IMG/VR virus record: IMGVR_UViG_3300042894_006439 | Location: 1-56,556 of that record | Strand: one strand, 5' to 3' | DNA length: 56,556 nucleotides | Origin: a virus | In this document: positions 7,985 through 54,751 of the stretch, piece by piece | How positions within the stretch are numbered: position 1 is the first letter of the stretch | Layout of the letters: every line of letters starts with the position of its first letter | The notes under the pieces: generated by a model | What the model saw: only the letters and a program-made list of their open reading frames with translations | Told to the model about the DNA's origin: nothing | Databases searched by the model: none | Position numbers and translations under genes: made by a program

Positions 7985-8257
7985 ATGAAATATATAAAAA
8001 AGTTTGAAGGGTTTGGTTATTCAGATGATGATTATCAGAATGAAGTTATTTCTATTCTAAAGAAGTTTAATTTAAGACCAACTGAAATCAATACTATTAT
8101 GGATTTCTATTCAGATATGATGATGGAATATGAGGATACTGGTAAAGTACCACAAGTATTCGTGAATGATATACAAGATAAGATAGGATTAGGACAAGGA
8201 GGATATTCAACAATTATAATGCCACCAAAACCGAATACATCAATAAAAAATTTATAA
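7985..8257 (+). CDS. Small late protein with MK-x-x-K-x-F-E leader
   Basis: 90 residues, beginning MKYIKKFEGFGYSDDDYQNE. The first 8-9 residues match the leader shared by about ten late proteins in this window (basic-hydrophobic, then F-x-E or F-E and a small residue). The body is a short, mostly helical, acidic domain with a Gly/Pro-rich tail (GLGQGGYSTIIMPPKPN). No function is recognised. By analogy with T4 internal proteins it may be packaged in the head and cleaved after the leader glutamate. It lies 4 bases from the next leader-bearing gene. Confidence 0.7.
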   Translation: MKYIKKFEGFGYSDDDYQNEVISILKKFNLRPTEINTIMDFYSDMMMEYEDTGKVPQVFVNDIQDKIGLGQGGYSTIIMPPKPNTSIKNL

Positions 8258-8261
8258 AAAG

Positions 8262-8825
8262 ATGAAAATAATTAAGTATAGTGATTTTATCAATGAAGCA
8301 TTTGATACAGTAGAAAACTACAGTAATTCCTTATTAGGAGTATTAAAGAAGAGAATTGATAAGATGTTTGAGTTTCAATCTGAACCAGAAGAAGGATCAG
8401 AAGAAGATAATATGACAGTAAAGAAAGCTAATATAACTTCTAAGAAAGATCAGGGAAAGCCAACATTTAAAGAGTTTGGTGTTAGATTAGATAGTTCAGA
8501 AATATCTAAAAAGAATACTAACTTAACTGTTAAGTTTTCAGATGATGAAAACACTTATTCTATTTTTGTTAAAGTTGATACGTCTGAAGTTGCTAATGAT
8601 ATTGCGGCCGCTGCTGGTGAGGAAGGTAAAGATTTTAGTATTGATGATATTAAAAAATGCCATGTTACACTTAAAAAATATGACATAAACACATTTGAAG
8701 TTATTGGACAACTAGATAAGAATGTAGAAGTTAAAGGTTTAGACGAAGAGTATCTAATCAATCTTAAAATTGAATTAGATGACATGTTTGGAGAAGAAGA
8801 AAAACTTGAAATAGAAACTGAATAG
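8262..8825 (+). CDS. Leader-bearing acidic late protein (FINE|A leader)
   Basis: 187 residues, beginning MKIIKYSDFINEAFDTVENY. The leader ends in F-I-N-E-A, the closest match in this window to the (I/L)-x-E cleavage sites of T4-type prohead proteases. A charged linker (EPEEGSEEDN) is followed by a beta-rich domain (LTVKFSDDENTYSIFVKVD) and a very acidic C-terminus. The family is unknown. Its size and acidity would suit a packaged internal protein or a scaffold-core component. It follows the previous leader gene by 4 bases. Confidence 0.7.
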   Translation: MKIIKYSDFINEAFDTVENYSNSLLGVLKKRIDKMFEFQSEPEEGSEEDNMTVKKANITSKKDQGKPTFKEFGVRLDSSEISKKNTNLTVKFSDDENTYSIFVKVDTSEVANDIAAAAGEEGKDFSIDDIKKCHVTLKKYDINTFEVIGQLDKNVEVKGLDEEYLINLKIELDDMFGEEEKLEIETE

Positions 8826-8853
8826 GAAACAGATTTATTTTAATAAATAAATT

Positions 8854-9351
8854 ATGTTAAATATAGTTTCAAGTTATCAAACCTTACAAGAATTTAAAAA
8901 ATCAAGGTATTTTAGAGTTAGTCTAGGATTAGTTCCTACCGTTGAAAAAAATGGTACTCGTATTTATAATGATCAAGATAGATTTGCTAGATTTTATAAT
9001 ATGCAGTATAACACTACAATTTATGGTCAGGGTAATGTTGGTGATATAAAATTTTATGTAGATCATTATATAAAAGATTCATCATTTGCAGTTTATACAG
9101 AAGATTTCCAAGAGTTTTTATTTCAATTAGAACCAATATTGATAAGAGATAAGGGTATAGAGTTTTATTTAGGACATATTCTAAAAAATACAGAGGAAGA
9201 GTATGATGAACGTGTAAAAGCAAATGAACTTAAAAAGATTGAAGAAAAACCTACAGGAGTTGCTGATAAAGTATTTAGTAATCCAGGTAATGTAAACTAT
9301 GAAGATTTAAAAGCTTACTTAGCTGAGAAGAATAAATCACGTTATAAATAA
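8854..9351 (+). CDS. Hypothetical late protein, possibly virion-associated
   Basis: 165 residues. The N-terminal two thirds form an alpha/beta domain (YFRVSLGLVPTVEKNG, RFARFYNMQYNTTIYGQG, IKFYVDHYIKDSS). The last 60 residues are helical and charged, ending KNKSRYK. No membrane segment or signal peptide is present. An AT-rich element (TTTTAATAAATAAATT) precedes the ATG and resembles the late box. It lies after two leader-bearing proteins and converges with the next, minus-strand gene, overlapping it by 10 bases. No family is recognised. Confidence 0.7.
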   Translation: MLNIVSSYQTLQEFKKSRYFRVSLGLVPTVEKNGTRIYNDQDRFARFYNMQYNTTIYGQGNVGDIKFYVDHYIKDSSFAVYTEDFQEFLFQLEPILIRDKGIEFYLGHILKNTEEEYDERVKANELKKIEEKPTGVADKVFSNPGNVNYEDLKAYLAEKNKSRYK

Positions 9352-9590
9352 AGATAAAGTAATTTATAAACTTCTAATTTATCTTCATCATCTAAATCAT
9401 CAAAGTCAGTTGTATAATCTAATTCATCAATAAATTTATGTAAAGTGATTATATTATTACTTAATTCTATTGTATTAAAAGTTTCAAAACTTAAAGGTAA
9501 ATCAATGATTATCTCGGAAACACCAAGTCCTATATCATTTATTAATCTGATAACTTTTTTTCTAATAACAGAACTAAATATCTCTTTCAT
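9342..9590 (-). CDS. Small acidic hypothetical protein
   Basis: 82 residues from the ATG at 9590 (MKEIFSSVIRKKVIRLINDI). An upstream in-frame ATG at 9614 lies inside the dnaK terminator hairpin and is rejected. The chosen start sits 5 bases after a TTTTTATATATA box on the minus strand. The C-terminal half is strongly acidic (DELDYTTDFDDLDDEDKLEV). It is convergent with, and slightly overlaps, the gene ending at 9351. No function can be suggested. Confidence 0.6.
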   Translation of the reverse strand: MKEIFSSVIRKKVIRLINDIGLGVSEIIIDLPLSFETFNTIELSNNIITLHKFIDELDYTTDFDDLDDEDKLEVYKLLYLYL

Positions 9591-9595
9591 AAGAG

Positions 9596-9608
9596 TATAT
9601 ATAAAAAA
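9596..9608 (-). promoter_or_regulatory. Late-type box on minus strand
   Basis: Read on the minus strand, TTTTTTATATATA is followed by CTCTT and the ATG at 9590. Its T-run is also the T-tract of the dnaK terminator, so the end of one unit and the start of the next are fused. Confidence 0.45.
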
Positions 9609-9630
9609 AGCCAATCAAATGATTGGCTTT
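9601..9630 (-). terminator. dnaK terminator
   Basis: Hairpin GCCAATC/GATTGGC (9610-9627) followed on the minus strand by seven T's. It lies 5-8 bases after the dnaK stop. Confidence 0.8.
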
Positions 9631-9634
9631 TTTA

Positions 9635-11524
9635 TTACTTACTTGTTTCATCAGAAACGTCCTCATAACTTACATCTTGAACATCGTCTGAACTTTCGTT
9701 AGTTGGTTCAGGCTCGTTTTGAGATTGTTCGTACAATTTAGCACTGATTGCATGCCAAGAATCACTTAGTTTTTTAGAACTTTCGTCGATTGCATCAACA
9801 TCTTGATCAGCGTAAGCTTTTTTCAATTCATCTAGGTCTATACCTAAAGCTCTCTTGTCTTCCTCTGTTAGTTTTTCATCAAACTCTTTCATTTGTTTTT
9901 CTGTTTGGAAGATTAAGTTGTCAGCACCGTTAAGTTTGTCAACTTTTTCTCTTTCAATTCTATCAGATTCTGCATTAGCTTCAGCTTCTGCCTTCATATT
10001 CTCAATTTCTTCTTTTGTTAATTGAGAACCACCTTCAATTCGGATTTTGTTTTCTTTACCAGTAGCTTTATCTTTCGCGGTTACTGAAAGTATGCCGTTG
10101 GCATCGATATCCAAAATTACTTCCACTTGTGGAATCCCTCTTGGTGCAGGTGGAATACCATCTAAATGGAATCTACCTAAAGAACGATTGTCTCTTGCCA
10201 TAGGTCTTTCACCTTGAAGACAGTGGATCTCTACAGAAGATTGATTATCTGCTGCAGTAGAGAATGTTTCACTTTTTCTTGTAGGAATAGTAGTATTAGC
10301 TTCAATTAATTTAGTAAACACACCACCCATTGTTTCAATACCAAGTGAAAGAGGGGTTACATCTAATAGTAATACGTCAGTAATACCACCAGTCAACACG
10401 GCACCTTGAATAGCAGCTCCTAATGCAACAACTTCATCTGGGTTTACAGATTTGTTTGCTTTCTTACCAATGAATGATTCGATTGCTTCTTGAATAGCTG
10501 GGATTCTTGTAGAACCACCAACCAAGATAACTTCATCAATGTCAGCTGGTTTTAATTTAGCACTTTTAAGAGCAGACTTTGCACAATCAATAGCTCTTTT
10601 AACTAATGAACTAGTCATTTGGTCAAATTTAGCTTTAGTCAATTGTTTTACAAAGTGTAAAGGTTGATTGTCTCTTGATGTGATGTAAGGTAGATTAATG
10701 TCAGTTGTTGTAGAAGAAGATAATTCAATCTTAGCTTTCTCAGCAGCTTCTTTTAATCTTTGTAATGCCATAGCATCTTTTGATAAATCCACATCATTTT
10801 CAGATTTGAATTCTTGAACCATCCAAGTAATGATTTCGTTATCAAAGTCGTCACCACCTAAGTGAGTATCACCGTCAGTAGATTTTACTTCAAAAACACC
10901 GTCTCCAATTTCTAATACAGATACGTCATGAGTTCCCCCACCACAGTCAAATACTAAAATTTTAGACTCGTCATTTTTCTTATCTAAACCATACGCTAAA
11001 GCAGCGGCAGTTGGTTCATTGATAATTCTTTCAACTTTCAAACCAGCGATTTCACCAGCTTCGATTGTTGCGGTTCTTTCTGCATCACCGAAGTAAGCAG
11101 GAACAGTGATAACTGCTCTTGTGATTTCACATCCTAAATAATCTTCAGCAGTTTTTTTCATTTTTTGTAAAATCATTGCTGAGATTTCTTGTGGAGTATA
11201 TACTCTGTCTCCAATTCTAACACCAGGTACATTAGAGCCAGTTTTTTCTACTTTATAAGGAGTTCTTTTAATTTCATCTGAACAAGATGAGAAATCTTTC
11301 CCTATAAATCTTTTGATTGAGTAAACAGTTTGTTCTGGGTTAGTAACTGCTTGTCTTTTTGCAGGGTCTCCCACTTTTCTATCATCTTTCATGAAGCCTA
11401 CAATAGAAGGTGTTGTTCTTTTACCTTCTGAATTGGAGATTACAATTGGTTCTCCTCCCTCTACTACTGCAACACATGAGTTGGTAGTTCCTAAGTCAAT
11501 TCCAATAATTACGTCTTTTGCCAT
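9635..11524 (-). CDS. dnaK: Hsp70 chaperone DnaK
   Basis: 629 residues, full length for DnaK. The ATPase domain comes first: [18 protein letters not shown] (residues 7-24), then [30 protein letters not shown] and a phosphate loop reading [12 protein letters not shown], where most DnaKs have VFDLGGGTFDVS. The substrate domain follows, with the linker [19 protein letters not shown], then a lid and an acidic tail ([16 protein letters not shown]). Catalytic residues look intact. The Leu to Cys and Phe to His changes in the phosphate loop are unusual. Bacterial-type DnaK is rare in phages; here grpE and dnaJ lie 4-6 kb away on the other strand, so the phage supplies the whole Hsp70 cycle, probably for folding or assembly of its proteins. 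Confidence 0.97.
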
Positions 11525-11675: not shown

Positions 11676-13073
11676 ATGTTACAACAAATACTAGATAATA
11701 TAGAAGGAATACTCGTTGAGTTGATAGATAATCAGATTGATTTTGATTTTGATGTAAAAGACAAAAGAGATAAATTTTTAACATTTGATATTAGGTTTTT
11801 TCCAGAATTTATAAGAGATGGTGGTTTAAGTCGTTATTTTCCTTATTTAGAGTTTTATGGTAGAGATGGTAAGTTAAAACCTTATATAAAGGAAGCACTT
11901 TTAACATTAGATACATATCTAAAAAATAAACTAATGTATGTCAAGGTTCATTCTCTATTCGGAAACGAAGGAATTATGATGTCGATTCCTGAATTTACTA
12001 GAGTTGAAGGTTCAATGGCAACTACAATTAAAATTTTTACTATTGGGGTTTCTGTGAATCATTTAGCAAGAGGTAAAGCAAACAGGAATATAAAAGAAAG
12101 AAGGATATACTCATATTCTCAATTTATAAATGAAGAGTTAAAAGATATAACTACAAATGTTTCCGGTTCTGGTAGAAGTAGAGAGGTTACTAAAATCTAT
12201 AATGATGAAGATGCTTATATAAAATCACCTGCTGCAGGTGTCTTATTAAATAATAAGTTTAGAAAAGAAGAAATGGATTCAATCATTACTGCCTTACAAC
12301 AAGGTGCAAAACCCGAGGAATTTAGTATAAAAGATCCTAAACTATTGAGAATTTTAGTTTTGGCAAATAATCTGAAGTTTCTAAAAGATACATTAAAAGA
12401 AAAGGGTAGATTACAATGTGAGTATTGTGATAAAGGACCTTTAATTATATATGATGTTACACCAGATAAATTCAGTAATCTAATTGATAATCCTTATTAT
12501 AGGTTAAATCAAGATTTTGATGCTGAGTGGGGAGCAACTTGTGATCATAAAGACCCACAATCATTAGGTGGTGATAAGTTTGATTATAGTAATCTAGCAG
12601 TTTGTTGTTATAGATGTAATCAACGAAAGAGATCAATGCCTTATAAACAATGGATGGAAAGAATTGGTAAAACAAATGAGAGTTTAGTAGTACCAAGACA
12701 ACCTATCGATCAAATGGCAGATACTTTTATCATTGAAGTATTTGATAAGTTTGATATAGATTATTGTAAGCCAGAAGATGAAGAAAAAATGGATTATGCA
12801 CAAGAAGCTTATTGGACTTTTGTATTTGAAGATAGAGACGGTAAAGGTGGTTTATTAGAAAAACCATATGAACAATTTCTTGAAATATGTTGGTTAGAAA
12901 GTGAGTTATATACAAATGTGATGAATGAGTTACTAGCAGTAAAAAGTATGGTTGAAAGAAGAACTGGTTATACTTATAAGTTAAAACATAGTACCAGTTG
13001 GGGTTATGGATTTATAACTATAGAAACTAGAGATATATATGGTAATTTTTTAAGACCAGAAGAAAATATATAA
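11676..13073 (+). CDS. Large protein with HNH endonuclease domain
   Basis: 465 residues. About 245 N-terminal residues match no family I recognise. An HNH/McrA-type nuclease domain occupies about 247-325, with two CxxC zinc knuckles (CEYCDKG and CCYRC), the catalytic segment ATCDHKDPQSLGGDKFDYSN and NQRKRS. A C-terminal domain of about 140 residues is helical then beta. The H-D...N order fits an active beta-beta-alpha-metal nuclease. Large size, a late-type promoter and its place beside leader-bearing late genes argue against a simple homing endonuclease. A late-acting nuclease (packaging, host DNA or defence) is possible. The next gene starts 3 bases after its stop. Confidence 0.8.
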   Translation: MLQQILDNIEGILVELIDNQIDFDFDVKDKRDKFLTFDIRFFPEFIRDGGLSRYFPYLEFYGRDGKLKPYIKEALLTLDTYLKNKLMYVKVHSLFGNEGIMMSIPEFTRVEGSMATTIKIFTIGVSVNHLARGKANRNIKERRIYSYSQFINEELKDITTNVSGSGRSREVTKIYNDEDAYIKSPAAGVLLNNKFRKEEMDSIITALQQGAKPEEFSIKDPKLLRILVLANNLKFLKDTLKEKGRLQCEYCDKGPLIIYDVTPDKFSNLIDNPYYRLNQDFDAEWGATCDHKDPQSLGGDKFDYSNLAVCCYRCNQRKRSMPYKQWMERIGKTNESLVVPRQPIDQMADTFIIEVFDKFDIDYCKPEDEEKMDYAQEAYWTFVFEDRDGKGGLLEKPYEQFLEICWLESELYTNVMNELLAVKSMVERRTGYTYKLKHSTSWGYGFITIETRDIYGNFLRPEENI

Positions 13074-13076: not shown

Positions 13077-13523
13077 ATGAAACATTTAAAAAAATTTAAT
13101 GAATCTGCTACAGAAGGACTTGATAAAGAATTTCTTGATATGGTTTTTGTAAACTTCCTTGATAGAGGAATTGAAACTAAGATTAGTCCAAATAATATGG
13201 TTTATACAATTGAGATAAAATACGAAATGGTTAGTAGTATAGGTAGGTTAAAAACATATTTAGACCAAGCTAAAGAAGATGCATTAGATATAGAGTCTGG
13301 TATGGCAAAAGTTAAGATAGAGATACCTAAGGCTTGTTATACATTATATCTAAAAGATCAAACTATTCTATTTAAGATCTATAAAGACTTAACTATACAA
13401 TCTTCTCCTAATCCAGAAGGTATTCAAGAAGTAGAAGGTTGGGATCCTGATAATGATGATTTTTTTGATGATGATGAAGCAGGTGAAGAGGATCGTCATG
13501 CTACATGGTTAAGAAATAGATAA
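13077..13523 (+). CDS. Leader-bearing late protein, paralogue of the gene at 19184
   Basis: 148 residues, beginning MKHLKKFNESATEGL, with the shared leader and a predicted cut after FNE. The body begins EFLDMVFVNFLDRGIE, which aligns with YIEMCFVDFIDKGCE in the protein at 19184, so the two are paralogues that keep both leader and N-terminal fold. A strand-rich middle is followed by an acidic tail (PDNDDFFDDDEAGEEDRH). The function is unknown. It is transcribed with the HNH protein and ended by a strong terminator shared with the convergent RNA ligase gene. Confidence 0.75.
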   Translation: MKHLKKFNESATEGLDKEFLDMVFVNFLDRGIETKISPNNMVYTIEIKYEMVSSIGRLKTYLDQAKEDALDIESGMAKVKIEIPKACYTLYLKDQTILFKIYKDLTIQSSPNPEGIQEVEGWDPDNDDFFDDDEAGEEDRHATWLRNR

Positions 13524-13524: not shown

Positions 13525-13552
13525 TAAAAAACCCACCAATCGGTGGGTTTTA
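13525..13552. terminator. Bidirectional terminator
   Basis: ACCCACC-AATC-GGTGGGT (13531-13548) with A's on the left and T's on the right. It serves the plus gene ending at 13523 and the minus gene ending at 13550. Confidence 0.85.
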
Positions 13553-14809
13553 GTCTTCTACATCTTCTTCAACGTCAATGAAGAATAAAGTTGGGTCAAT
13601 TTTAGATAACCACTCTCTTGCTATTAACAATTTGTTAGTATCTCTTGACAACCAAACTTTAGCCATTTCAAATGGTTCAGAAGTTTTGATCATATTTTCA
13701 TATCTTTCATAGTCTTCAAAGATTTCTAAGATTTCTTCTCTTGATAGTAATGCCATTTCATCTACAGTCGCCATTTTCATTACATAATGAAAGTTCTCTT
13801 CTTTACTTTTAAAGTTGATTGAATAATCTTTTCTTGAACCTACAGTTAAGTAGAACTCATATGATTTTCTTATTTCATCAACTTTTTTAGATAAAGCTCT
13901 TTTAACTATTGAAATGATTTTCTCAATTCTAGCGTGTGCTTCTACTTCATCTTCTGGGATTTGAGCGATAACATCATCAATTTCATCAGTTAAGATGTAG
14001 TTGATTATAACGTTTTCTCTGTAAATATCCTCAGTCAATATACCGTGTCTTTTGAAGTACCAGTCAGTTTTGATTTTCATCAATAAACCGTTAGTAAATT
14101 CAATTATCCACCCTTCTTTATCTTCTGTGTAAGAAGCCATTTCAACTAACTCGTCTAAAGTATAACCTGCTTCAGAAGGAGTTACTCTAACGTCTCCGAT
14201 TACGTCTAAATAGTCATTTAAGTCTAATAGTTCACCAGTAACATTATCTCTCAATCTCAATAAGATTAAGTCTTCTTTAGCATATCTTAAAACTATTTTG
14301 TTTGTCGGAGCGACATACTCAAAGATTGCAGTTATATCAAGATCAAAAGTCCAATCAACAAATCTTTTTACGGACTCGTTTGATTTGTAAACTCTCATGA
14401 TACCTTCTGCTTGGTCAGTGATAACTGACATTTTTGATTTACCAAAAACTGATCCGTCTGGAAGTTTGATAAATGATGCCACAGAACCATCTTCTTTGTT
14501 GTAGATAGATTTGATTTTTAAGTCTTTAACTTCTGAATACATAGTATCTGGTACTTGGTTCAAGTTAAAGAATTTCTCTAATAATAAGTATCTTTTAAAC
14601 AAAGAACCGTCAGAGTTGAACACATAAGTGATCCCTCTCATTTCTTTTGCACCTGGGTCATTGAAATCCGCCCAAGAAGCTAGTCTATAGTTGAAAGTAG
14701 ATACAGCATACCCACCTACAATAGATTTTGATTCGTAAAATGGAGAGTCCACTTTATTAACCAAAGCTAATGCTTCATCGTAAGTTGGTATGTTGTATAT
14801 TTTTTTCAT
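13550..14809 (-). CDS. rnlA: T4 Rnl1-type RNA ligase
   Basis: 419 residues, a little longer than T4 RnlA (374). RNA ligase 1 seals 5'-phosphate to 3'-OH RNA ends, using ATP and a lysyl-AMP intermediate. The nucleotidyl-lysine motif is SIYNKEDGSVAS with K105 as the adenylated lysine. Other family motifs seen are AKEMRGITYVF (about 54-64), LDITAIFEYVAPTNKIVL (about 155-172) and EGWIIEFTNGLLMKIKTDWY (about 230-249, motifs IV-V). The C-terminal helical domain resembles the tRNA-binding region of Rnl1. With the kinase-domain protein at 52300 it could rebuild nicked tRNAs, as in the T4 PrrC response. The preceding 63-residue gene lies 6 bases upstream in the same unit. Confidence 0.9.
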   Translation of the reverse strand: MKKIYNIPTYDEALALVNKVDSPFYESKSIVGGYAVSTFNYRLASWADFNDPGAKEMRGITYVFNSDGSLFKRYLLLEKFFNLNQVPDTMYSEVKDLKIKSIYNKEDGSVASFIKLPDGSVFGKSKMSVITDQAEGIMRVYKSNESVKRFVDWTFDLDITAIFEYVAPTNKIVLRYAKEDLILLRLRDNVTGELLDLNDYLDVIGDVRVTPSEAGYTLDELVEMASYTEDKEGWIIEFTNGLLMKIKTDWYFKRHGILTEDIYRENVIINYILTDEIDDVIAQIPEDEVEAHARIEKIISIVKRALSKKVDEIRKSYEFYLTVGSRKDYSINFKSKEENFHYVMKMATVDEMALLSREEILEIFEDYERYENMIKTSEPFEMAKVWLSRDTNKLLIAREWLSKIDPTLFFIDVEEDVED

Positions 14810-18397: not shown

Positions 18398-19177
18398 ATG
18401 GCAGATTATATTCCTTATCAAGGTGGTTTAACAATAGATGAATTTATAGATTTGGTACAAACTGAAATAAGTGTTTCTTGTGCTTTACCAAAAACTTTAC
18501 CTGACGCAAATCTACGTCAAATAATTGAAACAAGAGCTCTTCCTTATTTTTATAGATGGAACCAATATGCTGTACAAAAAATGTATTTTCTTCTTAGAAA
18601 AGAAGCTTTTACTTCTGAAGAATTTACAAAATATAGTTACGTAACTGTTCCTTGTGAAATACAATCTGTTGTTTATTTATATGAAGTAAGAGGAACATCA
18701 CTTTTTCAATTAGGTATCAATACACCAAACTTATCTGTAAACTTAGGGGTTACTAATCAACCTTACTTATCTTCTTATGTTACAACAATTGGAGAGTTAG
18801 GGGTTTATAAAACAATGTTAGATAATATGTCTGATATGTTAAACCAATTAAATAAATATACACTTAGATACTCATTTAATCAATTAAATCATAGATTACA
18901 TATTTTAACAAAAGTTGAATATGATGTAATTATTGAAGCTTATGCTAATATTCCACAAGAAAACTTATTTAAAGATGATTTATTCTATAAATACTGTGTT
19001 GGTTGGGCAAAAGTTCAATTAGGAAATATGTTAGGAATGTATGACTTTTCTTTACCGGGTGGTGTTAAGATAAATCATGCTAACTTAATTACACAAGGTC
19101 AGGCAGAATATAAAGAGGTAGAAGAAGAAATCAAGGCACAAAGTAATAGTTCTTGGTTCTACATGGTTAAACGATAG
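18398..19177 (+). CDS. Putative neck/connector virion protein
   Basis: 259 residues, beginning MADYIPYQGGLTIDEFIDLV. Tyr- and Leu-rich helices (LPYFYRWNQYAVQKMYFLLR) and a beta region are followed by a C-terminal segment, KYCVGWAKVQLGNMLGMYDF then SLPGGVKINHANLITQGQAE, which recalls structural proteins of T4-like phages that sit at the portal-tail junction. The assignment is from general appearance and late expression, not a specific motif. It lies 6 bases before a leader-bearing gene and is read from its own late-type promoter. Confidence 0.6.
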   Translation: MADYIPYQGGLTIDEFIDLVQTEISVSCALPKTLPDANLRQIIETRALPYFYRWNQYAVQKMYFLLRKEAFTSEEFTKYSYVTVPCEIQSVVYLYEVRGTSLFQLGINTPNLSVNLGVTNQPYLSSYVTTIGELGVYKTMLDNMSDMLNQLNKYTLRYSFNQLNHRLHILTKVEYDVIIEAYANIPQENLFKDDLFYKYCVGWAKVQLGNMLGMYDFSLPGGVKINHANLITQGQAEYKEVEEEIKAQSNSSWFYMVKR

Positions 19178-19183: not shown

Positions 19184-19567
19184 ATGAAACATTTAAAAAG
19201 AATTTTTGAAAGTACAGAAGAATTAGACACCGATTATATCGAGATGTGTTTTGTTGATTTTATTGACAAAGGATGTGAAATTGAGGTTAATACTGATGAA
19301 GGTGGAAAGTATATTTCTTTAATGCCTAATTTACCTGGTGTTTCTTATTCAAATGGTGAGTGGGTTAGAAAAACTAAAAGAAAGACTCTTGATGATGTTT
19401 TAAAATCAAGCAAGGAACTTTATGATTTCTATGATGAGATAAATACTTGTATAAAAAAAGTAAAGATAAAATATCCAGATATAGAAGTTGAATTTAATAT
19501 AGAGAAAGAAGGATATGAGAACAATGATCCATTTGATGCTTATATACAATTAGATTTTTTGTTATAA
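19184..19567 (+). CDS. Leader-bearing late protein, paralogue of the gene at 13077
   Basis: 127 residues, beginning MKHLKRIFESTEELDTDYIE. The leader ends F-E-S, with predicted cleavage after the glutamate. The following YIEMCFVDFIDKGCEIEV aligns with FLDMVFVNFLDRGIETKI of the protein at 13077. The rest is a strand-helix domain with DVLKSSKELYDFYDEINTCI and an acidic end. The function is unknown. It is co-transcribed with the putative neck protein, which supports a virion-associated role. Confidence 0.75.
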   Translation: MKHLKRIFESTEELDTDYIEMCFVDFIDKGCEIEVNTDEGGKYISLMPNLPGVSYSNGEWVRKTKRKTLDDVLKSSKELYDFYDEINTCIKKVKIKYPDIEVEFNIEKEGYENNDPFDAYIQLDFLL

Positions 19568-22201: not shown

Positions 22202-22212
22202 TTTAATATATA
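22202..22212 (+). promoter_or_regulatory. Late-type promoter box TTTAATATATA
   Basis: Exact copy of the recurrent box, 5 bases before the ATG at 22218 and 10 bases after the nrdB terminator. It opens the run of leader-bearing genes 22218-24464. Confidence 0.55.
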
Positions 22213-22217
22213 ACTTT

Positions 22218-22553
22218 ATGAAAATATTAAAATTTAATGAGTTTGAAGAAGTAAACGAAGCACTTCCTAGACAACAATCAGTAGATCAGCTAAAAAAAGT
22301 TATGAAAATGTCTGCAAGTACTGACATTGGTAACAGAATTTCTGATATGAATAAACAAGGTGCTAATATAGATTATATTAAAAATCCTATTGATAAAGGT
22401 ATTGAATCATACGAAGATTATGAAAAACATAATAAGAAATTTGTTTCTTCTTGGAATTTAAAAGGTTTAATCGGTCCTTTTGCACCAGAACCTAAACCAA
22501 AAGTTGATTTTGATTTAGATTATGAAAAGAAACAAGGTAAAGTAAAAAAATAA
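22218..22553 (+). CDS. Leader-bearing late protein
   Basis: 111 residues from the ATG at 22218 (MKILKFNEFEEVNEALPRQQ). The upstream ATG at 22194 lies before the promoter box and is rejected. The leader has two candidate cut sites, after FNE and after VNE (VNE-A). The body is helical and basic (SVDQLKKVMKMSASTDIGNR), with a Lys-rich tail (KPKVDFDLDYEKKQGKVKK) that could bind DNA. The function is unknown. Its stop overlaps the next start (TAATG), so it is coupled to the 2H phosphoesterase gene. Confidence 0.75.
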   Translation: MKILKFNEFEEVNEALPRQQSVDQLKKVMKMSASTDIGNRISDMNKQGANIDYIKNPIDKGIESYEDYEKHNKKFVSSWNLKGLIGPFAPEPKPKVDFDLDYEKKQGKVKK

Positions 22554-23164
22554 TGAAAATTAAAAAGTATATACAATTCGTTAAAGAATCAACCGGTTAT
22601 GATTATGGTTGTGTTATGGTTGAAGTTCCGGTATCAAATTGGAATGAGATTTGTTCGGTTATTGATAAGGATGATATTTATGAAGAAGAAAATGATACAT
22701 CTTATGGTATTCAAGAAAATCCACATTTAACTTTATTATATGGATTAAAATCTGATGTAAGTAAAGAAAAGGTAGAAGATATATTAGAAAATATTATGGA
22801 TGAGTGGCGTAATTTTGGTATGGAAGATTTTGATTATAATGATGTTTCTGATAGAATTGCAATAGAAGATGCTAGTGATAAAGGGATTGAGATTGAAATA
22901 GAAAATATAGGAGTATTTGAAAATGAAAAATTTGATGTTGTTAAGTTTAATATTAAAAAAACTGAACTACTACAAAAACTATTTGATGGTCTTTCAGAAT
23001 TACCAAATGAAAATACATTTCCTGATTATAAACCACATATGACAATTGCTTTTGTGAAAAAAGGATTAGGTGAAAAATATAAGAAAAAATATAGTCATAA
23101 AGTATCATCTAATGAAATTTGTTACTCAATGGCAAATGGTGAAAAAGTATACTTTGAGATATAG
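22553..23164 (+). CDS. 2H phosphoesterase-like protein with virion-type leader
   Basis: 203 residues. It begins with the shared leader MKIKKYIQFVKESTGYDYG (predicted cut FVKE-S). The two HxT motifs of the 2H phosphoesterase fold follow: NPHLTLLYGL (H58, T60) and YKPHMTIAFV (H162, T164), about 104 residues apart. 2H enzymes cut cyclic or 2'-5' phosphodiester bonds. They include LigT, AKAP7-type 2'-5' phosphodiesterases and the phage anti-CBASS protein Acb1 that destroys cyclic nucleotide alarms. Which substrate applies here is not known. The leader would place the enzyme inside the capsid and so in the cell at injection, before any phage gene is expressed. Confidence 0.8.
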   Translation: MKIKKYIQFVKESTGYDYGCVMVEVPVSNWNEICSVIDKDDIYEEENDTSYGIQENPHLTLLYGLKSDVSKEKVEDILENIMDEWRNFGMEDFDYNDVSDRIAIEDASDKGIEIEIENIGVFENEKFDVVKFNIKKTELLQKLFDGLSELPNENTFPDYKPHMTIAFVKKGLGEKYKKKYSHKVSSNEICYSMANGEKVYFEI

Positions 23165-23166: not shown

Positions 23167-23952
23167 ATGAAGATACTAAAGTTTGAACAGATAAACGAAA
23201 ATAAAATGTGGTATAAAACAATACCAGAAATGTTAAACTTTCTTAAAAGTAAGTCTAACCTACCTTGGTTGTGGTTGGACACCGAAACTACCGGCTTATT
23301 AGGTCCTAAAAAAGAGCAACTAACACAAGTATCTGCACTGGCAACTAAATATAATTTTAGTTCTAATACATTTGATGAGATTAGTTCTTTTGATGATAAA
23401 ATCAAACTAACTTCTGAATTAAAGACAAGGTATAATCAACCAGATGGTGGTAATAGAAGAATTCTAAGTTTTAATCATTATGGATCAGGTGGTTATAAAT
23501 ATAAAGAGGAAAGACAAATCGTTGATGAGTTCTTTCATTGGGTCTCAAAATTTTCACCTTGTTTATTGATAGCACAGAATGCCGGATTTGATATGCAAAT
23601 GTTATCTGGTAGATTTGGTCATAAAATAACAAATGAAGTCTTAGATACTAAAATGTTGATTCAATTATATTTCTTACCACTTATTCAAAAGTTAGCAGAA
23701 ACTGATTTAACTTATCAAAAAATGGTAGATGGTATTGGAACTTCTACGAGAGATAATGGTTTAATCTCATCTTCAATGAGTAAAGTTGGACCAGCACTTG
23801 GAATCAATATGTCTGGTTATCATGATGCATTAACGGATTGTCGTATTACGATAGAAATGTATAAAAGAATAGTTGATTTATTAAATCAGTATAATAATAT
23901 AGATATATCAAAGTATCAAACCGAAAGGATAAAAAGTATTAGAACAAAGTAA
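23167..23952 (+). CDS. DEDDh 3'-5' exonuclease with virion-type leader
   Basis: 261 residues. The leader MKILKFEQINENKMWYK (cut predicted at INE-N) is followed by a DnaQ/RNase T-like domain. Exo I is WLWLDTETTGLLG (D38, E40), Exo II is LIAQNAGFDMQML (about 135-147) and Exo III is YHDALTDCRITIEMYKR (about 218-234). The His four residues before the last Asp marks the DEDDh subtype. All four acidic residues and the His are present, so it should be an active exonuclease on DNA or RNA. No polymerase domain is attached. It lies 2 bases after the 2H gene and overlaps the next start, so three leader proteins are made together. Confidence 0.85.
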   Translation: MKILKFEQINENKMWYKTIPEMLNFLKSKSNLPWLWLDTETTGLLGPKKEQLTQVSALATKYNFSSNTFDEISSFDDKIKLTSELKTRYNQPDGGNRRILSFNHYGSGGYKYKEERQIVDEFFHWVSKFSPCLLIAQNAGFDMQMLSGRFGHKITNEVLDTKMLIQLYFLPLIQKLAETDLTYQKMVDGIGTSTRDNGLISSSMSKVGPALGINMSGYHDALTDCRITIEMYKRIVDLLNQYNNIDISKYQTERIKSIRTK

Positions 23953-24464
23953 TGAAATTAAGAAAGTATAACGAAGCATTTGAAGAAGGTCATTTATATG
24001 ATAAAGAAGGTAATGATGTTGGTAAATTTCAAAAGGCATGGCATGAGGAAGTAGAAAGAAAACTTAAACAGCATATGTTATATTTGAAAACTATCTTTCC
24101 TGAGGTTTTAGAAGATACTAAAGATTTATTAGATGATTACTTTGTAGAAGCACTTGATCGTGATGCAAAAACATCTATATCTAAAGTAAATAAAGCAGAT
24201 CATGTTGGATTCTATGGTAGATATAGAATTGTGGGTAACTATGCTAAATCAGATAAAACTTTATCTGGTTATGCAGCAACTTTTAATGGACTTAGTAATG
24301 ACTTTCTTGATATAGAAACTGGTCTTAAACACTTACAAGCAAAATTCAAAGATGAAAGTATCTTTGGTGAAGAATTTCCAATTACTACACTTACACACAC
24401 TTTAAATGTTACTCATAATGATAGAGGTATCAGTTATGAGTTCATATTAGATATGAAGTTTTAA
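23952..24464 (+). CDS. Leader-bearing late protein
   Basis: 170 residues, beginning MKLRKYNEAFEEGHLYDKEG, with candidate cuts at YNE-A and FEE-G. The body has a long helix (AWHEEVERKLKQHMLYLKTI), a second helix (LEDTKDLLDDYFVEALDRDA), then a beta region (GFYGRYRIVGNYAKSDKTLS; YEFILDMKF at the end). No catalytic motif is recognised. The start overlaps the exonuclease stop (TAATG). The shared GFYGR/PFYGR turn and overall size hint at a distant relation to the protein at 24534, but this is weak. Confidence 0.7.
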   Translation: MKLRKYNEAFEEGHLYDKEGNDVGKFQKAWHEEVERKLKQHMLYLKTIFPEVLEDTKDLLDDYFVEALDRDAKTSISKVNKADHVGFYGRYRIVGNYAKSDKTLSGYAATFNGLSNDFLDIETGLKHLQAKFKDESIFGEEFPITTLTHTLNVTHNDRGISYEFILDMKF

Positions 24465-24500: not shown

Positions 24501-24512
24501 CTTAATATATAA
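24501..24512 (+). promoter_or_regulatory. Late-type promoter box CTTAATATATAA
   Basis: Recurrent box with one change (C for T), 21 bases before the ATG at 24534. Confidence 0.45.
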
Positions 24513-24533
24513 ATTATAAAAAAAAACATAAAA

Positions 24534-24914
24534 ATGAAATACATTAAAAAGTTTAACGAAGGTTTTGAACCTATAGTAGCACAACGTAAATTGTCAGATA
24601 ATTTTAAAAAAACTGCAGATTCAGTACTTGATATGATTGAAAGTGATGAAAGCCTACATTATCTTAAAGATATGGCAAAAGAAGTAAAAGCAGACGGAAG
24701 TGAGGGTTGGAGTACAGCAGAGAGAGATTTTATTAAAGAATTAAAATCATGTTTCCCTGAAATCGATTTTGGTATGCAAGAACACCTAAAAACTGGTTTT
24801 GATATTCCTTTCTATGGTAGAACTGGTTCAATTGGTATTGGTGGTAATCCATCAGAAACGGTTACATTATCTTCATATATTATTGGAAAACTTGGTGGGT
24901 GGCAATTCGAATAA
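24534..24914 (+). CDS. Leader-bearing late protein
   Basis: 126 residues, beginning MKYIKKFNEGFEPIVAQRKL, with a predicted cut at FNE-G. The body has helices (NFKKTADSVLDMIESDESLH; TAERDFIKELKSCFPEIDFG) and a glycine-rich beta end (PFYGRTGSIGIGGNPSETVT). The function is unknown. It has its own late-type promoter and a strong terminator, so it is a single-gene unit and may be made in large amounts. Confidence 0.75.
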   Translation: MKYIKKFNEGFEPIVAQRKLSDNFKKTADSVLDMIESDESLHYLKDMAKEVKADGSEGWSTAERDFIKELKSCFPEIDFGMQEHLKTGFDIPFYGRTGSIGIGGNPSETVTLSSYIIGKLGGWQFE

Positions 24915-32591: not shown

Positions 32592-33770
32592 TTATTTCTT
32601 ACCCCATTTTTCTATTGCTACCTGGTATTCACCGGATAGATTACCGTCAATTGATTGTCTCATTGCCTTTGTACCAGCTAGTGTACCATTTGGATGACCG
32701 TGTATGGCACCACCTACGTTAGCCATATAATCAATTCCAACTTTAGAATTAATCCAATCAGTTAGTCCAGGATGGAATCCACAACTAAGTGCAGGCATTA
32801 CATTATACTTATGTAATGTTTCAATAGAGTTTATTACTTCACTTTCATCCCATTTATAATACCCACCAATCATTCCGACATGTATAAAGTCAACTCCCAT
32901 CATTCCTGCTAATTTAGAGATAACGTTCCAGTCAATGTGAAAGTCATGGTTTTTATTAGTCAATATTTTATCACCACTTTTTTGAAAATGTATAAATATT
33001 GGTAAGTCTAATTCTCTTACTGCCTTATAGACTCCTAGTCCACACCAAAAGTTAATATGAACTGCATTACCACCTAATTCATAAACTTTTTTTACTCTAT
33101 CAATTATATATGGATAGTCTGAATGTATAGAAACTGCATAAATAACATTTTTGTCTTTTAAGTATTCCATAATTAGTGGTACTCTTTCTTCGATAGTACA
33201 GAAAGATGGGTTACTTAAAATCTCATCTTCTTTAATAAAGTTGACACCCCCTTCTACCAGTTCTTTAACCATCTCCAAAAGAGTTTGTGGTGAGATACCA
33301 GTCTTTGGCTTAACAATAGCACCAAGTATTGGTTTATCAAAACACTTTGTATATTCTCTTATTCCTTTGATTCCGAATTTTGGACCTAAAAATAATTTTT
33401 CAATTGATTCTGGAAATATAATATTTAAAACTTGACATTTTATAATATTATCAATATCTAATTGACCACCCATTATATTTACTAATAAATGTGAAATACC
33501 ATCTGTTTTGAAGTCTATATTTATAGTTGGAAAAGCAATATCAACAGTTCCTAATTTTTTAGTTTTTAATAATTCTTCATCTTCTAATATTATACAGGAA
33601 TGATTATCAAACAACTCCTCTGATTCCCATTGATTTCTGACATTTGGATTACCAACACTTTGACCTATTGCAAGATTCCAAGAAGCATCTCTAAGTGTTG
33701 TAGTAGACTCTAAGAAGTAGGTTACTATAAAGTAGTCTTCTTTATTTATTTTTTTTCTAAAAATATTCAT
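32592..33770 (-). CDS. RuBisCO-like protein (form IV-like large subunit homologue)
   Basis: 392 residues, somewhat shorter than RuBisCO (about 450-475). Clear family motifs: GAIVKPKTGIS (150-160; K154 and K156 correspond to K175 and K177 of spinach), GGVNFIKEDE (174-183; K180 is the lysine carbamylated in RuBisCO, and D182 and E183 are the metal ligands), FIHF (about 249-252), DFIHVGMIGG and GGAIHGHPNGTLAG. Loop 6 reads GGYYKWDE rather than VGKLEG, and the Asn equivalent to N123 appears replaced by Gly. These changes argue against CO2 fixation and for a RuBisCO-like enolase, isomerase or decarboxylase. It sits within a sugar-nucleotide cluster, so a sugar-phosphate substrate is likely. Very unusual in a phage. 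Confidence 0.88.
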   Translation of the reverse strand: MNIFRKKINKEDYFIVTYFLESTTTLRDASWNLAIGQSVGNPNVRNQWESEELFDNHSCIILEDEELLKTKKLGTVDIAFPTINIDFKTDGISHLLVNIMGGQLDIDNIIKCQVLNIIFPESIEKLFLGPKFGIKGIREYTKCFDKPILGAIVKPKTGISPQTLLEMVKELVEGGVNFIKEDEILSNPSFCTIEERVPLIMEYLKDKNVIYAVSIHSDYPYIIDRVKKVYELGGNAVHINFWCGLGVYKAVRELDLPIFIHFQKSGDKILTNKNHDFHIDWNVISKLAGMMGVDFIHVGMIGGYYKWDESEVINSIETLHKYNVMPALSCGFHPGLTDWINSKVGIDYMANVGGAIHGHPNGTLAGTKAMRQSIDGNLSGEYQVAIEKWGKK

Positions 33771-47054: not shown

Positions 47055-47543
47055 ATGAAATACTTAAAATCATTCAAAATCTTTGAAGAATTGGATATAG
47101 ATCATGAAACTAATAGAAGAATGGAAAGTAATACTAAATCTTTGGTAGATATGGCAAAAAGATATGAGTCAGATTTAACTAAAAAAGGATTAAAAGTAAT
47201 TACTAAAAATTCAAATTCAAGTGACGAATCAAGAAAGTTAAGAGAGGAAGCATGTGATAAAGTAAAACAAGGTGATGAAAATGTATATGGTATTATGCAA
47301 TGGACTGGACAAACTTGTCAAAGTTTCTCTATAGTTTCACCAGAAGGTGGTATCGAAGTTCTTAGAAAACCTACAAATAGTCAAGATCTAACTATTAGTT
47401 ATTCGGAAACACCTGGTAAAATGTGTACAATAGATATCTATTCAACACCACGTAATGGAAAATCTAATTATTTACAACAAGATGGTGAAGTTCTATATAC
47501 TTGGGACTCATACGGTAAAGTAGCAAAAGGAAAACTGGCATAG
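47055..47543 (+). CDS. Leader-bearing late protein
   Basis: 162 residues, beginning MKYLKSFKIFEELDIDHETN, with a predicted cut at IFE-E. The body has a helical part (MESNTKSLVDMAKRYESDLT) and a beta part (YGIMQWTGQTCQSFSIVSPE; TCTIDIYSTPRNGKSN-like). No family is recognised. It stands alone on the plus strand between two minus-strand blocks, with its own late-type promoter and terminator, as expected for a protein needed in large amounts late. Confidence 0.75.
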   Translation: MKYLKSFKIFEELDIDHETNRRMESNTKSLVDMAKRYESDLTKKGLKVITKNSNSSDESRKLREEACDKVKQGDENVYGIMQWTGQTCQSFSIVSPEGGIEVLRKPTNSQDLTISYSETPGKMCTIDIYSTPRNGKSNYLQQDGEVLYTWDSYGKVAKGKLA

Positions 47544-50094: not shown

Positions 50095-50577
50095 TTAGTT
50101 ACTTTGTAAATTAAAGTTATCTTCGGGTTCAATGATGTTAAAGTCTTCACATCTTTTTATAAAATCTTCAACAATTGAGAATGTTGATTGTATATCGTCA
50201 AATTTATGTTCTTTGACATCCCATTTAGATTTATCTTGACTCTTTAATTTTCTAAAGATTGTAACTACTGTATATTTTTGTTTATGGAAAGTAAATGTTA
50301 TAGAAGCATAATAGTCGTCTCCATTTACACGTTTTAATGATGTTGCAAAAAGCATGTGTATTTTATGTTCACCTTTTTCAACTATTTTATAATTGAAGTT
50401 ATTAAGTACTGGAAATTGGTATCTCATTACATCTAAAAATCTAATATCTTCACCAGTCTCATAGTTTTTAAACTTACTTATAACTTCCGGCATTTCACCT
50501 TTTAAATAAGGTATCTCATATTGTGATTTAAAATCATCAGTATCGAAAAACTCTAGTAATCTTTTAATCTTTTTCAT
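50095..50577 (-). CDS. Hypothetical protein with possible weak leader
   Basis: 160 residues, beginning MKKIKRLLEFFDTDDFKSQY. The start is basic and hydrophobic like the shared leader, and LLEF-F could be a degraded site, but it does not fit the F-x-E-small pattern well. The body is mixed alpha/beta, with LFATSLKRVNGDDYYASITF and KFDDIQSTFSIVEDFIKRCE. It is the only minus-strand member of the possible group, in a run with the FMN reductase (14-base overlap). I place it outside the leader family. Confidence 0.6.
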   Translation of the reverse strand: MKKIKRLLEFFDTDDFKSQYEIPYLKGEMPEVISKFKNYETGEDIRFLDVMRYQFPVLNNFNYKIVEKGEHKIHMLFATSLKRVNGDDYYASITFTFHKQKYTVVTIFRKLKSQDKSKWDVKEHKFDDIQSTFSIVEDFIKRCEDFNIIEPEDNFNLQSN

Positions 50578-51867: not shown

Positions 51868-51882
51868 TATTATGGGGTAATT
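51849..51882. other. Stable hairpin overlapping a stop codon
   Basis: ATTACCCC, G, ATAAT, then a short loop, ATTAT and GGGGTAAT form a long stem. The stop codon of the gene ending at 51870 lies within it. T's follow only on the plus strand, where no gene precedes it, so it is more likely an RNA-processing or mRNA-protecting 3' structure for that gene, or an operator over the adjacent promoter, than a plus-strand terminator. Confidence 0.5.
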
Positions 51883-52298: not shown

Positions 52299-52299
52299 A

Positions 52300-52776: not shown

Positions 52777-52781
52777 AATTA

Positions 52782-52812
52782 CAAATATACGAATAAAATT
52801 CGAGTTGACAAA
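52782..52812 (-). promoter_or_regulatory. Bacteroidota-type promoter (TTTG...TATATTTG)
   Basis: On the minus strand TTTG (complement 52809-52812) is followed after 19 bases by TATATTTG (complement 52782-52789), ending 5 bases before the ATG at 52776. This is the best host-type promoter in the window. Confidence 0.65.
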
Positions 52813-52823
52813 TTTTATATATA
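52813..52823 (+). promoter_or_regulatory. Late-type box TTTTATATATA
   Basis: Variant of the late box, 26 bases before the ATG at 52850, directly back to back with the host-type promoter on the other strand. Confidence 0.45.
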
Positions 52824-52849
52824 AGAAATAAATAAAGTTTTATAATAAT

Positions 52850-54751
52850 ATGATAAACAAATATAATGATTTCATTCTCGAAAGACTACTAAATGAGTCG
52901 GTAATATTTTATGCACCTCCATTTAAAAAAGTCTTAAAAAAGTTATCTAATGAGCCTATTTCTAAAATACTATTAGATACAGAAAGAACTGATATAAAAC
53001 CAGATATAACATTTGTCAATTTAGACAAAGAAGGTTATGTTTCATTTACAACGATGAAGAATACCAAAAAGATTTTAGCGGATAGATTCTCAGATGTTTT
53101 TGATGAAGAAGGTTTAGAAAATACATTAAACAATGATCCGCTTATTGGTGATGATATATGGAACTTACATGATGGTGCTAATACTATTAGACACGAGTCT
53201 CCTTTAAGAGGACAAGGTATGTTAGGTGATGCAGATCCATATGAAAAGGCTAGAAATCCTATTAAGTTAGGTCGTTTTATAAATAATATATTCCCTGGTA
53301 AATTTACTGCAAGAGAAGTAGAAGAATTTGTAAATAAATTCAAATCTACATTAGAACAAAGTGGTGAAAGATTTATTGAAGTATCAGGTGATGAAATTGC
53401 AGAATGGTATGACTATAATAGTTATAAAATTATGAATGGCTCATTAGGTAGTTCTTGTATGGCAAGATCAGAAAAAAGAACATTTGAGATTTATACTGAT
53501 AACCCAGAGGTGTGTAGAATGTTAGTTTTATTGGAGGATGATAAACTAATTGGAAGAGCACTTATTTGGAAAGTAATTGATGATGTTGATACAGTTTCTA
53601 AAGAAGATCACTTAAATATTAAATATTTCTTAGACAGACAATATACTATAAAAGATTCTGATGTAGAAAAGTTTAGAACTTATGCAATTGAGAAAGGTTG
53701 GGCTTATAAAACACATAATAATCATCATAATCTAGATTCGGTAACATTTGAAGATAAGAATTATAGACTAGAGATGAAAGTTCAACTTAATCGTAAGGAA
53801 TATAGTAGATTTCCTTATGTTGATACATTTAGAAGATATGATCCAAGAACTGGAATACTTACTAACGATAGTAATAATGAAGAGGATGCGATTGGATGTT
53901 ATATTTTAGATAGTACTTCTGGTGGATATAATGAGGTTACAGATGATGTTTGGTCAGAATGGCATGATTGTGAAATTAGTAGGGATGAAGCTATCTATTC
54001 TGAAGAATTACAAGATTGGATATACGAAGAAACTTCTATTACTGTTAGAAGAGGATCTCGTGCTGGTGTTTATCCTGAAAATTATGATGAACTTTGTTGG
54101 TCTGAATGGGATGATGAATACTATCATAGTGATAATGCAACTTGGTGTGATGATTATCAGGATTATATCTTTGAAGAAGATGCGGTTTCTGTAGTTACTA
54201 GCGTTGATGATGATGGTGATATTTCCAGTGGTTGGAGTGACCAATACTATCATAAAGATGATAAAGATACTATTATCTTAATGGATAAAGTAAAAGAAAA
54301 GGAATGGTATAAAAAATTAAAAACTGAAGATCGTGATTGGAGAGATAAAGAAGCTATTAAGTTAGAACTTGTTACATTAGATTATAAAAATGAATACGTA
54401 TTAAACATTTTCCAAATAGAAACATTTTTACTAAAAACTGATGAAGAAAAAGATTACTTCTATCTAACAGAAGAAGATGCTGAATTACTCGGATATGAAA
54501 TTGATAAAGTAAGTGATGATGATGATAATCTTGATAAGTATAGAAGAATAACTGATTGGTTTGACTATTATAAAGATATAGAAACTTATAAAGACAAACC
54601 TACTTTATTTAGAGACAAACCACTTATAACAGTTGAAGAATTGAAGAATAAAATAGATGGAATCATAGATTCGGAAAAAGAGGATAATGAAAAATTAGAT
54701 CCTCACTATTGGACACAAAGATCTGAATTTTTACAAAAATGGTTTGAATAA
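52850..54751 (+). CDS. Large hypothetical protein with W/Y/D-rich repeats and leader-like N-terminus
   Basis: 633 residues, beginning MINKYNDFILERLLNESVIF. The start has two leader-like sites (FILE-R and LLNE-S). A middle domain includes IMNGSLGSSCMARSEKRTFE and DNPEVCRMLVLLEDDKLIGR (about 195-240), a recognisable hypothetical-phage-protein pattern. The C-terminal part (about 370-500) repeats a W/Y-rich acidic unit (VWSEWHDCEISRDEAIYSEE; DELCWSEWDDEYYHSDNATW; GWSDQYYHKDDKDTIILMD). The repeats may bind metal or glycan; the function is unknown. Read from a late-type box and ended by a strong terminator. Confidence 0.7.
   Translation: MINKYNDFILERLLNESVIFYAPPFKKVLKKLSNEPISKILLDTERTDIKPDITFVNLDKEGYVSFTTMKNTKKILADRFSDVFDEEGLENTLNNDPLIGDDIWNLHDGANTIRHESPLRGQGMLGDADPYEKARNPIKLGRFINNIFPGKFTAREVEEFVNKFKSTLEQSGERFIEVSGDEIAEWYDYNSYKIMNGSLGSSCMARSEKRTFEIYTDNPEVCRMLVLLEDDKLIGRALIWKVIDDVDTVSKEDHLNIKYFLDRQYTIKDSDVEKFRTYAIEKGWAYKTHNNHHNLDSVTFEDKNYRLEMKVQLNRKEYSRFPYVDTFRRYDPRTGILTNDSNNEEDAIGCYILDSTSGGYNEVTDDVWSEWHDCEISRDEAIYSEELQDWIYEETSITVRRGSRAGVYPENYDELCWSEWDDEYYHSDNATWCDDYQDYIFEEDAVSVVTSVDDDGDISSGWSDQYYHKDDKDTIILMDKVKEKEWYKKLKTEDRDWRDKEAIKLELVTLDYKNEYVLNIFQIETFLLKTDEEKDYFYLTEEDAELLGYEIDKVSDDDDNLDKYRRITDWFDYYKDIETYKDKPTLFRDKPLITVEELKNKIDGIIDSEKEDNEKLDPHYWTQRSEFLQKWFE

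Follow-up and report, generated by a model that had tools for sequence, protein, structure and literature searches.

The closest described counterparts of the element treated here are the internal proteins of phage T4. In the available parts of PMC9026906, a ten-residue N-terminal leader of IPIII suffices for targeting, with residues 4 and 7 weighing most for targeting and residues 8 and 10 for processing; foreign proteins that bear it as a fusion are packaged and delivered. As told in the available parts of PMC12373910, Ip1–Ip3 of T4 have only the leader in common and block different GmrSD enzymes, and at least ten such proteins are reported across related phages. A second described kind is that of the ejection (inner body) proteins of SPN3US and phiKZ, for which the accessible text of PMC5694885 gives many head proteins that are cut after Glu by the prohead protease and ejected, with propeptides mostly longer than 100 residues and another cut motif. 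The subject of this report is a short leader at the start of a set of proteins encoded by virus record IMGVR_UViG_3300042894_006439, a 56,556-base fragment of a huge phage, the whole of which is referred to below as the window. From its sequence and from the T4 analogy, this leader is very probably a short N-terminal capsid-targeting sequence that works like the leader of the T4 internal proteins.

As in IPI, IPII and IPIII of T4, of which the ipII and ipIII leaders translate as MKTYQEFIAE|A (the bar marks the cut), the leader takes up about ten N-terminal residues with hydrophobics at positions 4 and 7, ends in a [hydrophobic]-x-E site, and stands before unrelated bodies; a gp21-type protease and a gp23-type capsid protein are encoded in the same phage, here in the relatives rather than in the window. 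Unlike T4 with its three internal proteins, more than 100 leader proteins per genome are found in two relatives, the consensus reads MK[HY]L[KR]x[FY]..., and enzymes such as RNA ligase have the leader in some copies and lack it in others. In contrast to SPN3US and phiKZ, the leaders are only about 8–16 residues long and the head genes are of T4 type. The kind of system is thus already known from the T4 internal proteins and the longer SPN3US propeptides; what looks new is its scale (12–14% of open reading frames (ORFs) in two genomes), the lineage-specific pairing of leader and capsid site, and the use as a portable switch on enzymes. In the accessible portions of the open-licence literature, searches combining capsid targeting with huge or jumbo phages or with Bacteroidetes gave no report of such an expansion, which is not proof.

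Occurrence of the leader in the window and its relatives

The nearest DNA relatives of the window among phage records are LR745206.1 (W01, 634,780 bases) and LR756502.1 (W02, 642,428 bases), both uncultured and about 70% A+T, with DNA matches over 4–5% of a 19.1-kb window query at 79–80% identity. The neck-type protein of the window is 79% and 72% identical to those of W01 and W02, and 24–26% identical to those of Tenacibaculum phage pT24 and Sphingomonas phage PAU. The genomes of W01, W02, W03, PAU and pT24 were scanned as a whole, and those of W04 (160 of 735 kb), Lak-A2 (300 of 541 kb) and G003 (280 of 508 kb) in part, using for gene calling a crude longest-ORF script with no trained caller.

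The first-pass annotation had listed eleven starts in the window, one of them weak, as a family of about ten late proteins with an F/I/V-x-E site behind the MK start. In the ORF translation of the window all eleven exist and translate as described, and in the wider form [FILVYMW]-x-E at residues 7–20 the site is present in 10 of the 11, the protein at 7985 being without it (aa, amino acids):

7985..8257, plus strand: leader protein, 90 aa, MKYIKKFEG..., weakest site; best reciprocal matches in W01 and W02 both leader-bearing
8262..8825, plus strand: leader protein, 187 aa, MKIIKYSDFINE|A; W01 and W02 counterparts leader-bearing, bodies 49–50% identical
13077..13523, plus strand: leader protein, 148 aa, MKHLKKFNE|S; matrix score 20.2
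19184..19567, plus strand: leader protein, 127 aa, MKHLKRIFE|S; clusters with leader-bearing W01:455887 and W01:457944
22218..22553, plus strand: leader protein, 111 aa, MKILKFNEFEEVNE|A; start internal to a longer TTG-started ORF
22553..23164, plus strand: leader protein, 2H phosphoesterase, MKIKKYIQFVKE|S; PF13563 E 1e-7, HLT and HMT motifs
23167..23952, plus strand: leader protein, DEDDh-type exonuclease, MKILKFEQINE|N; PF00929 E 2.2e-6, exonuclease motifs
23952..24464, plus strand: leader protein, 170 aa, MKLRKYNEAFEE|G; from translation and site scan
24534..24914, plus strand: leader protein, 126 aa, MKYIKKFNE|G; matrix score 17.5
47055..47543, plus strand: leader protein, 162 aa, MKYLKSFKIFE|E; matrix score 17.3
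52850..54751, plus strand: leader protein, 633 aa, multi-copy family, MINKYNDFILE|RLLNE|S; 131 IMG/VR relatives, of which 80 kept

A strict pattern covering both variants of the leader matched 7 of 73 N-termini in the window and none of 209 internal-Met decoys. The same pattern was found on 114 of 952 ORFs in W01 (2.4 expected), 141 of 979 in W02 (5.1 expected) and 55 of 932 in W03 (8.2 expected), and on 29 of 363 in the G003 part (0.7 expected), 8 of 175 in the W04 part (0 expected) and 7 of 297 in pT24 (0.6 expected), so that a membership of about ten, correct for the window, understates the leader in its relatives. The decoys rule out chance or a generic N-terminal bias as its origin. In PAU this pattern of the huge phages gave nothing above chance (2 of 293, 1.0 expected). 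Matches judged false by eye were the Glu/Gln-tRNA synthetase-like starts (W01:408154, W02:423398) and W02:546646.

A matrix of residues 2–8, trained on W01 and W02 only and then applied to the window, gave its top scores (11.7–20.2) to five of the eleven named proteins, the next score (3.3) falling on a signal-peptide-like start. The proteins at 8262, 22218, 22553 and 23167, which carry a second variant (approximately MKxxKYxxF[IV]xE), scored from -0.5 to -4.1, and those at 23952 and 52850 were not among the best 18; this second variant covers most of the named window proteins that are invisible to the W01/W02 matrix. Of 67 W01 leaders that were chosen regardless of position 7, 64 have F or Y there (residue 4 forms part of the selecting pattern). 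The hydrophobic-x-E site is present in 232 of 255 W01/W02 leaders vs 579 of 1676 other N-termini, the type-2 pattern partly selecting for the site, and Ser follows the type-1 site in 71 of 193.

A permissive pattern matched 142 of 952 ORFs in W01 and 179 of 979 in W02, and was dropped for counts because about 15% of its matches are expected by chance. In this set, adjacent pairs of leader genes exceeded random placement (45 vs a mean of 21 in W01; 80 vs 33 in W02). The remark that all members lie on the plus strand is true locally in the window, whereas the W01 set divides into 74 plus and 68 minus, making the strand bias meaningless. Permissive leader sets were tallied by Pfam and PHROG (A1, 139 of 142 proteins; A2, 150 of 179), together with further sets (A3, 73 of 79; A4, 122 of 125), the family tallies covering the first 25 of 31, 41, 70, 53 and 124 families. 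Without specifying the matching member, the A1 and A2 tallies name, among others, tRNA synthetase, the small chain of ribonucleotide reductase, terminase and NAD-dependent DNA ligase; most of these are probably pattern errors, and some non-virion-type enzymes with a real leader are possible. An equal frequency of the start among clear non-virion proteins had been named earlier as a counter-sign. The window does not show this: the Pfam-named UvdE, RuBisCO-type, FMN reductase, gp32-like and RNA ligase proteins are leaderless, as are DnaK, DnaJ, ribonucleotide reductase and Clp, recognised by eye.

Link of the leader to the head and to a late-like promoter

A gp21-type (S77) protease, which the first-pass annotation had proposed to look for, is matched within about 3.5 kb of the gp23-type capsid gene in all five relatives, its identity leaning on this position where the match is below the Pfam cut-off. 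The capsid proteins of W01, W02 and G001–G005 (seven of seven close relatives) carry INE|N in the N-terminal arm, ahead of the conserved core, and this site matches the ends of the leaders. The variants are IHE|N in W03 and MNE|N in W04, and MAFFT aligns the site with LME|N of PAU. According to Table 1 of PMC5646251, in the part of that paper available, the PAU capsid protein is shortened from 585 to 520 residues as determined by N-terminal sequencing. A cut after E64 (ALME|N) leaves 521 residues and the nearest other upstream Glu would leave 526, and thus the LME|N site is within one residue of the measured cut (64/65).

PAU was found to have a leader of its own, MK[TSG][LIV]xxL[YF]E, on 20 of 293 ORFs and on no internal-Met decoy. 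It was detected by an unsupervised pair count on N-termini, the pattern being fixed after the list was seen. With this post-inspection pattern, the leader is present in 10 of 18 head-module genes vs 10 of 275 elsewhere (odds ratio 33, p=6e-9), and the leader genes are interleaved with a portal-sized gene, an S77-like protease gene, a scaffold-like gene and the capsid gene, the first three roles being judged by position and look. The P3 residue is Leu in both the leaders and the capsid site of PAU; it is Ile, Phe, Tyr or Leu in the W01/W02 leaders and Ile in their capsid site. Within each lineage the P3 residue of the leaders fits the capsid site.

In one small W01 leader protein (93266, 84 aa) the stretch following the predicted cut is also shared with the capsid protein (E 1e-5). 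The ORFs W01 93266–93520, W02 80294–80539, 144451 of the G003 part and W03 233552 have GMGxV...QPxx(L/I/V)(A/P)GT...GSGD in common with the capsid N-terminal arm, a segment that is possibly a capsid- or core-binding arm.

The leader genes carry the motif T(T/A)AATATATA shortly upstream of the start. Among genes with at least 45 intergenic bases, scored with a matrix trained on W02 leader genes, the motif precedes 30 of 32 leader genes vs 90 of 267 others in W01 (p=2.5e-11) and 23 of 31 vs 78 of 390 in W03 (p=1e-9), p-values that overstate independence since W01, W02, W03 and the other relatives share ancestry. The corresponding numbers are 9 of 9 vs 57 of 137 in the G003 part and 3 of 3 vs 7 of 23 in the window; in shuffled upstream regions the motif is present in 4–5%. 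The host-type sequence TAnnTTTG, a Bacteroidetes promoter, is upstream of only 1 of 32 leader genes in W01 and 0 of 35 in W02, vs 53 of 267 and 53 of 271 other genes. The three motifs before leader genes of the window are:

22203..22215, plus strand: late-like motif TTAATATATAACT before 22218, score 12.2
24502..24514, plus strand: late-like motif TTAATATATAAAT before 24534, score 10.8
52814..52826, plus strand: late-like motif TTTATATATAAGA before 52850, score 9.6

The motif is also above threshold before the neck gene at 18398 and before 28444, 1430, 9342, 11676, 26362 and 50564, and below threshold before the DnaK, ribonucleotide reductase, gp32-like and Clp genes. Among the W01 and W02 genes inspected by eye, it stands, sometimes in closely similar form, ahead of the portal, protease and capsid genes and of most others in the structural region. 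Motif-bearing non-leader genes of W01 include tail sheath, portal and major head protein (among the first 25 of 53 families), and motif-poor genes include topoisomerase, ribonucleotide reductase, DNA polymerase and DnaB-like helicase (among the first 25 of 124 families). A small gene of the T4 gp55 late-sigma type (phrog_234, E 1.9e-7), itself without the motif upstream, is located amid the W01 head genes (W01 189151–189516; L017:9151–9513), and its product is a candidate reader of the TTAATATATA motif.

Bodies behind the leader

A total of 358 leader proteins (W01, W02, W03, the G003 and W04 parts, and the window, with 22218, 23167, 23952 and 52850 added by hand) were grouped by BLAST, at E 1e-4 and 40% coverage, into 289 clusters, of which 244 hold one protein; distant relatives may be split under these settings. 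The bodies of the eleven window proteins are unrelated, as described earlier, the best pairs reaching only E of about 0.003–0.005. The single paralogue pair also reported is weak, with 39% identity over 18 aa between 13077 and 19184, and 13077/23952 is equally weak. Two further proteins bear on the leader:

11676..13073, plus strand: 465-aa protein with an embedded leader-like stretch before an HNH domain, own start leaderless; PF01844 E 7.7e-6, upstream motif score 12.4
12099..12134, plus strand: the embedded leader-like stretch RRIYSYSQFINE|E, residues 142–153 of the 11676 protein, missed in the first-pass annotation
13550..14809, minus strand: RNA ligase without leader; PF09511 E 4.5e-17, T4 Rnl1 match

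The window copy of RNA ligase is leaderless; its counterparts start with MKLFKYIEFINE|N in W01 and with MKKLHRYNSFIKE|S in W02. Among 25 IMG/VR homologues judged by eye, 17 carry the leader, five are without it and start near the enzyme body, one has a leader-like start lacking Glu, and two were unjudgeable from the called start. The late-like motif precedes 11 of 19 leader-bearing copies vs none of six leaderless ones (p=0.017, the sequences not being independent). The homologues of 22553 and 23167 are fused in W01 into a single protein of 438 aa, of which the joint, SINE|NKMWYKTIPE, retains the INE|N of the exonuclease, and W02:11122 corresponds to the HNH part of 11676 alone, as a separate leader protein.

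In the 52850 family, leader-like N-termini were found on 56 of 63 members by a loose pattern, to which 306 of 1268 internal decoys (24%) also conform; the 63 remained from 80 loci after removal of near-duplicates and short ones. One member (L345) bears the other leader type, MKHIKSFKVFES, and in an alignment of ten members the leaderless W01:603271 and W01:531413 begin near the end of the second Glu site of the others. The AlphaFold2 model of 52850 (mean pLDDT, predicted local distance difference test, 85.6) has residues 2–13 as a helix at low confidence (blocks 55 and 66), followed by a confident body. Its core gives a weak GNAT-like match (Foldseek best E 9e-3; VIA-align Z at most 6.7 over about residues 170–365), and the best viral matches of the fold are uncharacterised.

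The bodies that could be recognised include the RNA ligase of the relatives, a 2H phosphoesterase in which both HxT motifs are present, a DEDDh-type exonuclease and an HNH nuclease; the Pfam cut-off is passed by two of the eleven window proteins, 22553 and 23167. The similarity of 22553 to the anti-CBASS family Acb1 is weak (PF23474 E 1.2e-4, below cut-off). Eight of ten large W01 leader proteins gave no Pfam family at E 0.01, and a PHROG search with eight of them gave no match; sequence searches of PDB returned no match for 22553 and a single one at E 0.89 for the 52850 family, and 24534 was sought in five relatives and found in none. Counter-defence or host-takeover roles for the window cargo are guesses. 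The ligase body matches T4 RNA ligase 1 (Rnl1). Unlike T4 Rnl1 and Acb1-type 2H enzymes, most ligases of the relatives and the 2H protein of the window bear the leader, which suggests delivery with DNA besides or instead of synthesis after infection.

The ORF at 50095–50577 (minus strand) has a leader-like start with Asp replacing Glu, MKKIKRLLEFFDTDD, and was kept outside the claims; W02:340065 starts much alike, MRIKRFFELFDTTD. In T4, Asp at the cut site permits targeting and blocks processing (PMC9026906, available parts), and 50095 could therefore be an uncut member.

Capsid targeting and its alternatives, and neighbouring genes

Under the capsid-targeting reading, the tagged proteins would be made late in infection from the promoter type common to head genes. 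The leader, which probably forms a short helix and is hydrophobic at residues 4 and 7, would hold the protein in the prohead core. There the gp21-type protease would cut behind the Glu of the site [I/F/Y/L/V]-x-E|[S/N/A/G], as it does in the capsid protein, and the freed protein would stay inside the head and be carried into the next host along with the DNA. Targeting, leader cleavage, packaging and injection are all inferred. The analogy to T4 drawn in the first-pass annotation, a targeting leader cut after Glu, gains support from independent lines: the gp21/gp23-type genes, the capsid sites, the late-type motif and the clustering in the PAU head module. Several observations weigh on the other side: the window fragment holds neither prohead protease nor capsid gene; four of the five protease matches in the relatives are below the Pfam cut-off; the hydrophobic-x-E at residues 7–20 is absent from 23 of 255 W01/W02 leaders, as well as from the window leader protein at 7985; Lak-A2 has no leader above decoys in the part scanned (1 of 494, 4.5 expected), where gene calls may suffer from recoded stops; the motif also precedes UvsX, helicases and methyltransferases (among the first 25 of 53 W01 families); and 8 of 19 leader-bearing RNA ligases are without it.

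The leader could bring proteins into the prohead as core or scaffold for head building rather than for injection, as half of the PAU leader genes inside the head module, the W01 protein sharing its post-cut segment with the capsid protein, and the possible help of T4 IPIII in core assembly (PMC9026906, available parts) would allow. However, more than 100 mostly unrelated bodies per genome, little shared between sister phages, and the presence of enzymes (RNA ligase, 2H phosphoesterase, exonuclease, HNH nuclease) have the look of variable cargo rather than of a conserved scaffold, and this explanation is considered rather unlikely. The spread of leader genes over the W01 and W02 genomes would also suit a leader that sends proteins elsewhere in the infected cell, to a phage compartment or membrane, with the Glu site incidental. 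This is quite improbable, given that the leader ends match the capsid site in each lineage (P3 Leu in PAU; Ile, Phe or Tyr in W01/W02), that the promoters are of head type, and that PAU leader genes cluster in the head module. A shared nucleotide feature, such as a translation-start or recombination sequence resembling a peptide motif, could be favoured by the A+T-rich genomes and by the bias of some leader codons (His CAC in W02 leaders, 31 vs 18.8 expected). Synonymous variants are, however, used mostly near genome proportions, indicating that conservation acts on the protein and not on the DNA, and the leader wording shifts by lineage with the Glu site constant; codon use thus rules out a nucleotide-level element as the nature of the leader, and this reading is scarcely credible.

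On the capsid-targeting reading, a wider proposal stands about evenly balanced between true and false: that a second proteome of more than 100 proteins, about 12–14% of predicted ORFs, is pre-loaded in the head, leader and late promoter together forming a portable switch that converts an enzyme made after infection to one delivered before phage genes are read. RNA ligase would then have been caught on both sides of the switch. The prohead protease may also cut fused cargo apart, as is suggested by the SINE|N joint where the 2H protein and the exonuclease are fused and by the leader embedded in 11676. For most huge-phage proteins no function is known, and the leader makes hundreds of them one testable class of likely head cargo. 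It also predicts their site of action, a new host before phage transcription, and offers a sequence-based way to find injected proteins of counter-defence and takeover, as well as a candidate tag with which proteins might be loaded into capsids of very large size. The late-promoter motif is usable for annotating huge-phage genomes, and the idea can be tested directly in PAU, which has been isolated and has about 20 tagged ORFs.

Among other genes in the window, 1430–3376 (plus strand) encodes, behind a late-like motif, a protein of 648 aa that has a cohesin domain (PF00963) and, at its C-terminus, a sorting domain of the Por secretion (type IX) type (PF18962 E 1.4e-10). This protein points to a host among the Bacteroidetes, whose own system would secrete it. 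A RuBisCO-large-like protein (32592–33770, minus strand; PF00016 E 1.5e-34) is encoded within a minus-strand block of glycosyltransferase- and nucleotide-sugar-type genes at about 31–47 kb. The product of 4134–4844 (plus strand), among small signal-peptide-like proteins at 3.4–8 kb, has sub-threshold similarity to CsgG (PF03783 E 9.7e-4), and 374–1297 (minus strand) encodes a UvdE-family UV-damage endonuclease (PF03851 E 1.7e-48).

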